Below, piece after piece: positions 6,869 to 9,817 of a stretch of DNA of 64,000 nt. The DNA lies in contig NZ_CP116942.1 in assembly GCF_028532485.1 (NCBI RefSeq), forward strand, positions 1,364,001 through 1,428,000, read 5' to 3'. The position numbers and the translations under genes are program-made. Each line of letters begins with the position of its first letter. The stretch's first letter is position 1. The notes under the pieces are model-generated. The model ran no database searches. It had not been told where the DNA came from and saw nothing but the letters and a program-made list of their open reading frames with translations. The DNA is from Iamia majanohamensis (GTDB lineage: Bacteria > Actinomycetota > Acidimicrobiia > Acidimicrobiales > Iamiaceae).

Positions 6869-8563
6869 GTGGGCCCGGACCCGGACCAGCACGTCCCGTC
6901 GGCGCAGGTGAGCGACGTGCAGCGGATGTTCCGCGAGTTCGCGGCGTCCTACCCGGACCTGCGGCTCTACCGGGCGATCTGCGAGGGCGCGGCGGGCGAC
7001 GACGAGGTGGCCGGCCTGCTCACCGCGGCCAGGCCGGGGCAGGCCCGGCCCGTGCTCCTGCTGGCCGCGCTGCACGAGCTGGTGCTGCGCCGCCCGGACC
7101 TGCCCGCCGCCCGCTGGTACCCGAGCGTCACCGGCGAGCCCGTCGCCGAGGGCGACCCGTGGCCCGACGTGCGCCGGACCGCACTCGCCCACGCGGAGGA
7201 GCTCCGGGCGGTGATCGCCTCCCGGTCGACGCAGACCAACGAGGTCAACCGGGTCGTGTACCTCGCCCCGCTGCTCGCCCGGGCCGCGGCCGACGTCCCG
7301 GGCGCGCCGGTGGCCCTGGTGGAGCTGGGTGCCAGCGCAGGGCTCCTCCTCGGCCTGGACCGCTACCGCATCGAGGTCACCCCACCCGGCGAGCACGACG
7401 CCCCCGACCCGACCTCCCCGACGGGCGGGCCCACGCCGGTCACGGGCCGCGGCTCCCCGCCGGAGGTCGCCGGCCCCGGCGGTGGGAGCCTGCCCCCGGA
7501 CGGGGGGCCAGGGATCGTGCTGGGCGACCCGACGTCGACGGCGGTGTGCGCCGGGGTGCAGCGCGACGGGCCGTCGATGGGGGACCTGCGCCTGCCCACG
7601 ATCGTGGCGCGGGTCGGGCTCGACCGGGCCCCGGTGCCGCTCGACGACGAGGACGAGGTGCGCTGGCTGGAGGCCTGCCTGTGGCCCGACGTGCCAGGGC
7701 GCCTGGAGCGCTTCCGGGCCGCCGTCGGGCTGCTGCGGGCCGACCCGCCGTCGCTGGTCGCCGGCGACATGGTCGACGACCTCGAGGCCGTGGCCCGCTC
7801 CGCCCGCGCCGTCGCCACCGCCGCCCTCGCCCCCGCGGGCTCCCCGTCGGGACGCCCGACCGGCGACCGACCCCGAGGCCACGGGTCATCCGACCACCCG
7901 GCCGCCGACGCCGACGGCGACGGCGACAAGCCGGAGACGAGCGATGCCTCTCGCCCGGCCTCCGCCGGCGACGGTCCGGCGACGAGCGATCCCCGCCGCC
8001 TGGCCGCCGACGGGGAGGGTCCGGCGACGAACGGTGCCCGCCGCCTGGCCGCCGACGGGGAGGGTCCGGCGACGAGCGATGCCTCTCGCCTGGCCGCCGA
8101 CGGGGAGGGTCCGGCGACGAGCGATGCCTCTCGCCTGGCCGCCGACGGGGAGGGTCCGGCGACGAGCGGTGCCCGCCGCCCGGCCGCAGCAGGGGACGCG
8201 ATCGGCGGCCCTGGCACCCTGGGTGGGATCACGCCCGCCGCCTCCGGCGCGTCCGCCCCGGTGCACCTCGTCGTCTTCAGCTCCTGGGCGCTCACCTACG
8301 TGGCCCGGGAGCGGCGCCCGCAGGTGGCCGAGGCCCTCGCCACCCTGGCCGCCGACGGCCGCCCCGTGTCCTGGCTCACGGCCGAGCCCCCCGGCTGCGT
8401 GCCCGGCCTCCCCCGCCCGCCGGGCGACCCCGACCGCCCGTCCAACGAGGCGTCGACGATCCTCGGCGCCCGCCGCTGGCGCGCCGGCGTCGAGCTCCCC
8501 CCGGCCCGCTGGGGCACCAGCCACCCCCACGGCACCACCCTCTCCTGGCACCCCACCCCCTGA
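6869..8563 (+). CDS. DUF2332-family protein with an internal minisatellite
   Basis: Residues 1-170 ([52 protein letters not shown]) and the C-terminal 110 residues ([29 protein letters not shown]) match the DUF2332 family, whose function is unknown. The [10 protein letters not shown] motif resembles the SAM-binding loop of class I methyltransferases. The protein has 564 residues, while the family is usually near 330-350. The excess is a central low-complexity insertion, roughly residues 310-450, that contains five tandem 15-residue units. The insertion interrupts the domain between two conserved blocks and keeps the frame. The GTG start at 6869 follows a TAGCCT hexamer. Confidence 0.78.
7949..8173 (+). 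repeat. 45-bp in-frame tandem repeat (minisatellite)
   Basis: Five consecutive 45-bp units start at 7949 (degenerate), 7994, 8039, 8084 and 8129. Each encodes a 15-residue unit with the core [14 protein letters not shown]. The last four units are nearly identical at the DNA level, so recent unequal crossing-over or slippage is likely. The length is a multiple of three, so copy-number change would keep the host DUF2332 gene in frame. Confidence 0.9.
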
Positions 8564-8583
8564 CCCTCTCCGCCCCCCCGAGC

Positions 8584-8686
8584 TTTGAGCACTTGTCCGT
8601 CGCATGCGGCGACATGTGCTCAAGGTTGCGACGAGGCCGACGGACTTTGAGCACCTGTGCGTCACATGTGGCGACATGTGCTCAAG
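8584..8686 (+). repeat. Left twin-palindrome block of the nuclease cassette
   Basis: Two 41-nt copies lie at 8584-8624 and 8646-8686, 62 nt start to start. Each begins TTTGAGCAC and ends ATGTGCTCAAG. The outer arms pair with about one mismatch, and an inner palindrome GTCGCATGCGGCGAC (first copy) is nested inside. The same sequence, in reverse orientation and with the same 62-nt spacing, lies at 9674-9776 on the other side of the gene. Confidence 0.92.
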
Positions 8687-8750
8687 GTTCGGGGGACGAG
8701 GGTGGGCGGCACCCAGGCCGGGTGTCACACCGGCTGGCCACCATGGGGAG

Positions 8751-9662
8751 ATGGAACGGTGGAAGGACCTCACCCGTGAGGCCGAGCACGGCTTCGGCGT
8801 CGTCACGCGCGACCAGCTCTCGGGGGTCGGCCTCTCGAGTCGGACGATCGACCGATGGTCGGCCGAGGGCAGGCTCGTCCCGATGGCCCACGGCGTGTTC
8901 CGCCTCGGGGGTGTGCCGCCCAGCTTCGAGGCCGACGTCGTCGCGGCCCTGAGGGTCTTCGACGGCGACACGTGGGGCTCGCACCACACCGCCGCTCGGC
9001 TCCTCGGCCTCGGCGTGTCGGGTCGTGAGCACCGCATCGAGCTGACCCGCCCGTACGGCCTGAGCGCCAAGCGATCGATCGCCCGGGTGCACCGCTCCAC
9101 CCACCTGCCGCCGCACCACCTCACGACCGTCGCAGGCATCCCGATCACGACGGCATCGAGGACGGTCTTCGACCTGGCGCGGACGACGGGCCCGACCAGG
9201 CTCGGTCGGGCGGTCGACGCGGCGCTCCTCCAGCGGACGGCGACCATGGGCTCGCTGTACCGGGTGCTGCACGACCTGGGCGGTCGGGGTCGTCCCGGCA
9301 CCCGTCGCATGCGCGAGGTGCTCGACACCCGTGGCCTCGACCACATGCCGCCCGAGAGCGAGCTCGAGGAGGTCGGCATGGCGCTCCTCGCCGGTCTCGG
9401 GTTCACGTGGCAGGTCGAGATGTCTGATGCGCAGGGCTACATCCGGCGCGTGGACGCGCTGCACCGTGCCGGGGGCCTCGTCCTCGAGCTCGACGGCTCG
9501 CAGCACGACGCACCCCCGCAACGGGCTCTCGACCTCCAGGGCGACCGTCGGCTCGAGGCCCTCGGGCTCGAAGTGGTGCGGCTGCGCTGGGTCCACGTGA
9601 CCCGTGGGTCCGACGCCACCCGGACCGGGCTCCTCCGCCGTCTCCGCTCCACCGCCGCGTGA
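8751..9662 (+). CDS. AbiEi-like/DUF559 PD-(D/E)XK nuclease-fold protein
   Basis: The predicted protein has 303 residues. The N-terminal 90 residues resemble the winged-helix AbiEi-type antitoxin domain (GVVTRDQLSGVGLSSRTIDRW; LVPMAHGVFRLGG). The C-terminal 105 residues form a Vsr/DUF559-like restriction-endonuclease fold: Glu203 in PESELEEV, Asp235 in RRVDALH, Glu246 and Asp248 in LVLELDGSQHD, then GDRRLEALGLEVVRLRW. Such fused proteins are common orphans in actinobacteria and have no proven function. No toxin partner lies next to it. The ATG at 8751 gives the domain its usual beginning; the frame continues upstream into the palindromes, which I treat as non-coding. Mirror-image palindrome pairs flank the gene. 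Confidence 0.78.
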   Translation: MERWKDLTREAEHGFGVVTRDQLSGVGLSSRTIDRWSAEGRLVPMAHGVFRLGGVPPSFEADVVAALRVFDGDTWGSHHTAARLLGLGVSGREHRIELTRPYGLSAKRSIARVHRSTHLPPHHLTTVAGIPITTASRTVFDLARTTGPTRLGRAVDAALLQRTATMGSLYRVLHDLGGRGRPGTRRMREVLDTRGLDHMPPESELEEVGMALLAGLGFTWQVEMSDAQGYIRRVDALHRAGGLVLELDGSQHDAPPQRALDLQGDRRLEALGLEVVRLRWVHVTRGSDATRTGLLRRLRSTAA

Positions 9663-9673
9663 CCTCGGAGGAC

Positions 9674-9776
9674 GTTGAGCACATGTCGCCGCATGTGACG
9701 CACCTCTGCTCAAAGCTTGAGCGGGCACCGTCGATCTTGAGCACATGTCGCCGCATGTGGCGCACAAGTGCTCAAA
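9674..9776 (-). repeat. Right twin-palindrome block of the nuclease cassette
   Basis: Two 41-nt copies lie at 9674-9714 and 9736-9776, again 62 nt apart. They read TTGAGCACATGTCGCCGCAT in the direction opposite to the left block. The block starts 12 nt after the nuclease-gene stop and ends 55 nt before the recG start. Confidence 0.92.
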
Positions 9777-9817
9777 GGTCGCCCGAGCGGGCGGGCGAGG
9801 GGGGTTCGGGTGGGGCG

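Follow-up and report, generated by a model that had tools for sequence, protein, structure and literature searches.

What is a nuclease-fold gene doing between two pairs of palindromes in the space between a DUF2332 gene and recG? The question is raised by a stretch of 64,000 nt of the Iamia majanohamensis chromosome (the window), which covers positions 1364001-1428000 of a single-contig genome of 4.58 Mb (G000 in the comparisons below). A preliminary description of the window had reported four palindromes, starting at 8584, 8646, 9674 and 9736, that frame one gene, with a start spacing of exactly 62 nt on both sides and with the left and right pairs oppositely oriented. All of this is confirmed by our analysis, in which the cassette is resolved into the following parts:

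8584..8624, + strand: palindrome copy 1 (left outer), which belongs to a dispersed family.
8646..8686, + strand: palindrome copy 2 (left inner), 62 nt from copy 1.
8751..9662, + strand: gene for a 303-aa AbiEi-like/Vsr-EDxHD nuclease fusion (Pfam AbiEi_4 and DUF559, AlphaFold2 model, homologs).
8751..9335, + strand: residues 1-195, AbiEi antitoxin-like fold with an N-terminal winged helix (fold matches); proposed palindrome-binding module, as suggested by the AbiEi literature (PMC7319586).
9348..9659, + strand: residues 200-303, Vsr/EDxHD endonuclease domain (fold matches and conserved residues).
9674..9714, - strand: palindrome copy 3 (right inner), inverted with respect to the left pair.
9736..9776, - strand: palindrome copy 4 (right outer), 62 nt from copy 3.

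The gene extends from an ATG at 8751 to a stop codon at 9660-9662. Its downstream neighbor is recG (start 9831), as initially described, whereas the upstream one, previously given as DAK2, is the DUF2332 gene (6869-8563). The latter gene contains, at 7931-8187, a 45-bp tandem repeat in 5.7 copies, whose product, a repeat of 15 residues, interrupts the conserved domain. The palindromes of the cassette are about 41 nt each, are 84-93% alike across the gene and fold individually as imperfect hairpins of about 17 bp (z -5.0 for a single copy and -8.1 for the pair). By eye, these units start CTTTGAGC and have neither a GTAG nor a CGTC tetranucleotide head, and they have no match in Rfam. We scanned 304 kb of DNA (the window and twelve 20-kb stretches of four genomes) for hairpins: among the 496 recovered, similar pairs 0.5-2.5 kb apart are found in the window cassette only and, hence, the bracketing of the gene is beyond chance. 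The motif CCCGAGC, previously offered as a possible target duplication, is indeed present on both outer sides (8577-8583 and 9782-9788). On the left we reject that interpretation: CCGAGC also precedes the palindrome copy at 195649, and the left occurrence is therefore part of the repeat frame. At the other cassette junctions, which were compared across species, no target duplication was seen by eye.

The open reading frame was rightly described as a DUF559/AbiEi-like nuclease gene: above the Pfam cut-off its product matches AbiEi_4 (3e-7) and DUF559 (6e-6) only, and it has homologs in 44 of the 61 genomes that we searched. An NCBIfam search with the window protein returned no match, and neither did a sequence search against solved structures, so that a fold search was required. 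This was done with an AlphaFold2 model (pLDDT 94). Residues 1-195 recovered the AbiEi antitoxin 6y8q (Z 12.8, rmsd 4.5, 182 aligned) and Rv2827c, 1zel (Z 10.6, rmsd 3.9, 190 aligned), while residues 200-303 recovered the endonuclease-like protein NGO0050, 3hrl (Z 13.6), the catalytic domain of I-Bth0305I, 3r3p (Z 12.5, rmsd 2.2, 93 aligned) and Vsr, 1cw0 (Z 11.3). A link between DUF559 and the EDxHD family has been noted previously (PMC9403480). E206, D235, E246, H252 and D261 are each at least 90% conserved across 68 homologs; hence, the nuclease domain is probably active. When eight close homologs are compared, it is mostly in the winged helix that divergence is greatest, as would be expected of a module that keeps pace with changes in its palindrome.

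Is the bracketing a rule or a peculiarity of one locus? Protein searches recovered named relatives from Acidimicrobiales, Acidimicrobiia and other actinomycetote metagenome assemblies. In the named genomes a search with the single sequence returned nothing, while one with a close alignment returned four loci; on plasmids there were only distant, partial matches from Streptomyces. For each testable homolog we compared the 400 nt upstream of the gene with the region from -80 to +400 nt around its stop codon, and accepted repeats with a score of at least 20. Within the order, 63 of 95 testable homologs have a repeat common to both flanks, and in 56 of the 63 it is a hairpin. Random 900-bp segments with 350-nt flanks yielded a shared repeat in 1 of 625 cases and a hairpin in 0 of 625; as these flanks are slightly shorter than those of the survey, we note that at 350 nt the survey gives 55/94 and 47/94, respectively. 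Left flanks set against right flanks from different genomes reached a maximum score of 19 (n=145). Two loci that only a protein search had brought up (L274 and L275) are both bracketed. A gene lacking the palindromes in related genomes had been named at the outset as one finding that would speak against the pairing. Among the closest homologs there is none: all seven proteins of the close group (at least 42% identity, window gene included) have flanking palindromes. The flank survey did, however, find no matching flank repeat for about one-third of the distant homologs. In a phylum-wide sample the rule is weaker, with a shared flank repeat in 10 of 26 and hairpins in 6, and the partnership may have been partly lost or be confined to some clades. 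The window pairs are inverted, and the flanking repeats of other homologs occur in either orientation. Across the homologs an outer GAAC/GTTC tag is enriched (15 and 18 of 55, as against 4.1 in shuffles).

The palindromes themselves differ from gene to gene. The ortholog in a congener (G002), which occupies the same recG junction and has 69% protein identity, is bracketed by the unrelated palindrome TTGGACGGAACCCCGCAGCATGATGCCGTTCCCGTCCAA, and the remaining close homologs are each bracketed by further, different palindromes. As these two orthologs at one junction have unrelated palindromes, the copies on the two sides change in concert; and as left matches right without matching the ortholog at the same locus, the copies have been exchanged or replaced within the genome. 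We queried nine palindromes against eight genomes, with matches in six: among the matches listed, every palindrome is found in its own genome only. The copies listed, which are approximate lower bounds and include a few covariance-model sites of G000, number at least 42 and at least 9 for two families in G002; at least 13, at least 10 and at least 4 for three families in G000; and at least 39, 15 and 6 in G016, G006 and G001, respectively. The G022 palindrome has, among the matches listed, just its two flanking copies. G022 also has a strong palindrome, CCGAACCTGGCACGG...CCATGCCAGGTTCGG (L115 4849-4902, G022:C303), some 1.5 kb away from its bracketed gene and unlike the one that flanks that gene.

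These counts bear on a role in defence or addiction, wherein DNA would be attacked by the nuclease, with the palindromes serving either to mark and protect self or as targets that fix the gene in place. AbiEi has homology to phage-defence families and the Vsr-like domain resembles restriction-type nucleases; yet at least 4-42 palindromes per listed family are sparse for the marking of a chromosome, and neither an AbiEii toxin nor a methylase is present directly beside the window gene. We consider such a role improbable. The privacy of the palindromes also bears on a second possibility, namely that an unlinked enzyme mobilizes them and that the nuclease gene is merely cargo caught between two copies. 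Palindromes alone are far commoner than palindromes with the gene, and REPs elsewhere rely on a transposase acting in trans. If so, the cargo should be diverse; instead, members of one protein family are found between matching private palindromes in dozens of cases, no other segment of the 304 kb is so bracketed, and the whole genome has no match to the Y1 (HUH) transposase domain PF01797, for which control genomes were positive. Accordingly, we think it unlikely that the gene is a passenger.

The dispersal of the palindromes is evident from the window chromosome, where the pattern with up to 3 mismatches has 16 copies, of which 12 lie elsewhere than beside the gene, and a covariance model adds further, more diverged sites. 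Some of the dispersed window-type copies are single and some are in tandem at 62 or 72 nt. No chromosomal copy examined falls inside a gene, as called by a crude gene caller. In the best-studied family the units are of about 40-46 nt and have sharp edges. Twenty copies from G002 hardly differ over 36-40 nt, loop included, and their flanks are unrelated; the information per position in the copies of this genome is 1.4-2.0 bits inside the unit as against 0.3-0.9 outside, with similarity gone within a few bases, and several copies start right after the apparent stop codon of the upstream gene. Copies within one palindrome family are too similar for much covariation, which is barely or not above shuffled controls. 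At two sites in the window genome (L022 and L023; G000:C1:417324 and 1144493) about 200 bp upstream is near-identical too, including the apparent start of a leftward small gene, which indicates that a larger block was duplicated along with the palindrome. The palindrome model additionally recovers, in many genomes, a 49-nt match with a nearly constant score of 22.6 bits (e.g. G006:C30:56786-56834 and G002:C1:4449358-4449406), which is probably one conserved unrelated RNA or gene.

The form and placement of these units help to weigh two further alternatives. The protein could be an AbiEi-type autoregulator with the palindromes as its operators and the dispersed copies as its regulon: AbiEi proteins bind inverted repeats in promoters and autoregulate, with cooperative binding in S. 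agalactiae (PMC7319586), and the left repeats end at a median of 63 nt before the start codon. However, copies are also placed directly after the stop codon (right repeats, median +14 nt), several dispersed ones lie apparently just after gene ends, and, unlike diverged operators, the dispersed copies keep almost the same 40 nt, together with the loop, within unrelated flanks. A regulatory role would also leave the conserved nuclease active site unexplained, and we regard it as doubtful, if the best of the alternatives. Alternatively, the hairpins at the two ends could act as insulators or terminators that stop transcription of a foreign gene, their sequences being kept matched via gene conversion. 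Many dispersed copies apparently follow a stop codon closely or separate convergent genes, but no intrinsic terminator with a T-tract was found; moreover, the private sequences, the sharp-edged multicopy spread and the spacing step of about 10.4 nt (see below) are left unexplained, making this very improbable.

Cassettes of this kind are present or absent at a given junction depending on the species. In the comparisons that follow the names of flanking genes are putative, being read from translations, and insertion is deduced by parsimony across species. The cassette between an epimerase (SDR) and an aconitase gene in G002 is absent in G000, with about 40 nt between the two matches. Conversely, G002 lacks a paralogous G000 cassette that follows a gamma-glutamyltransferase-like (GGT) gene; there, the next gene apparently starts no more than about 15 nt further on. 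Neither G000 nor G003 has the cassette that G001 carries behind an FHA-type gene. At the recG junction of G005, DUF2332 and recG overlap and there is no cassette. At the FHA junction G002 has no nuclease gene; it has three tandem palindromes of about 52 nt with a spacing of about 71 nt (L227; G002:C1, after 4237562), which are related (42/52) to those beside another family gene of the same genome. With cassettes at some junctions and bare palindromes at this one, both are gained and lost at junctions of one kind. Thus, both the copies of the layout elsewhere and the empty sites in relatives, which had been suggested as support for a mobile element whose product recognizes the palindromes, were found; together with the missing Y1 domain they strengthen that proposal, minus its target duplication.

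The tandem copies beside the gene are spaced in two preferred ways. Among 24 families the spacing is 58-62 nt in 11 (mean 61.2) and 70-73 nt in 11 (mean 71.5), with 66 nt in one and 118 nt in one; dispersed G016 copies display further spacings of 84 and 95-96 nt. As compared with a uniform distribution over the same range this grouping has p ~1e-5; periods of 9.5-12 nt fit it statistically indistinguishably, and 10.5 is not singled out. The gap of 10.4 nt between the two means is about one turn of DNA, which suggests that proteins on neighboring palindromes touch each other on one face of the DNA. The homing endonuclease I-Bth0305I dimerizes on a target of nearly 60 bp (PMC3943268).

Several known systems share features with the cassette. 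The REP/RAYT systems likewise have a gene between inverted palindromes, the same palindromes dispersed in intergenic DNA, both singly and in clusters, and an own palindrome for each gene (PMC2817692). In contrast to them, the enzyme here is an AbiEi-like/EDxHD fusion with no Y1 domain, the window units lack the GTAG head, copies are fewer, and tandem spacings of about 61 and about 72 nt are preferred. Membership in REP/RAYT is rejected, as its defining Y1 transposase is absent from both protein and genome, in agreement with the remark in the preliminary description that those pairs use a different fold. With the EDxHD homing endonuclease I-Bth0305I the modeled nuclease domain appears to share the Vsr-like catalytic fold and the conserved E, D, H and D, for which E206, D235, H252 and D261 would stand. 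EDxHD or free-standing homing genes are also present or absent at the same site, as seen here at four junctions across species; but the window gene is not in an intron or intein, and the AbiEi-like DNA-binding module and the private multicopy palindromes set it apart. The AbiE type IV toxin-antitoxin system has the AbiEi fold that the model predicts for residues 1-195, but here a nuclease is fused, palindromes lie on both sides and are dispersed, and there is no AbiEii toxin beside the window gene, whose neighbors are DUF2332 and RecG. Vsr has the Dcm methylase as its partner and T:G mismatches as its substrate, with no palindromes involved. Its fold is shared with residues 200-303 (1cw0).

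Every rival, be it operator, passenger, defence or terminator, fits badly with at least one of the features established directly: pairing, privacy, dispersal, sharp units, presence/absence, spacing groups and conserved nuclease residues. We favor, with a probability of about 0.6, a selfish gene-palindrome module that combines an AbiEi-like domain binding inverted repeats with a Vsr/EDxHD endonuclease, i.e. a RAYT-like partnership built on an unrelated enzyme. The private palindrome of each gene, its dispersal, and a Vsr/EDxHD-type nuclease on a complete AbiEi-like module are what this adds to the initial view of the locus. Under the favored reading the AbiEi-like part would bind its cognate palindrome, cooperatively on adjacent units, whence the helical phasing of the tandem units; the nuclease would nick or cut at or near palindromes or intergenic targets; and repair would copy palindromes, and occasionally the whole cassette, into new sites. 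The module may thus be a functional analog of REP/RAYT in which homing-endonuclease-like chemistry replaces the Y1 transposase. The chances are about even that it represents an undescribed class of bacterial mobile elements, in which an AbiEi-EDxHD nuclease recognizes and propagates a private palindrome that switches sequence as lineages diverge, the REP/RAYT lifestyle having been reached independently with homing-endonuclease chemistry. In the open-access papers searched we found no description of a pairing between AbiEi-DUF559 genes and palindromes, and priority is uncertain; the titles and abstracts of the DUF559 papers among them mention no palindromes, and none was found that links AbiEi to dispersed palindromes.

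If correct, this would tie a second, unrelated enzyme family to repetitive extragenic palindromes. With an own palindrome for each protein, it would also provide dozens of natural protein-DNA pairs for recognition tests, from which a code of specificity change could be read. It would further explain the role of a widespread actinobacterial architecture, AbiEi plus DUF559, that is easily annotated as an antitoxin. The PADLOC AbiEi models PDLC02228, PDLC02249 and PDLC02231 match window 8751-9659 at about 1e-23 (8e-24 for the AbiEi-like region). With such a call made where no toxin partner lies beside the gene, AbiE counts in actinobacteria may be inflated.
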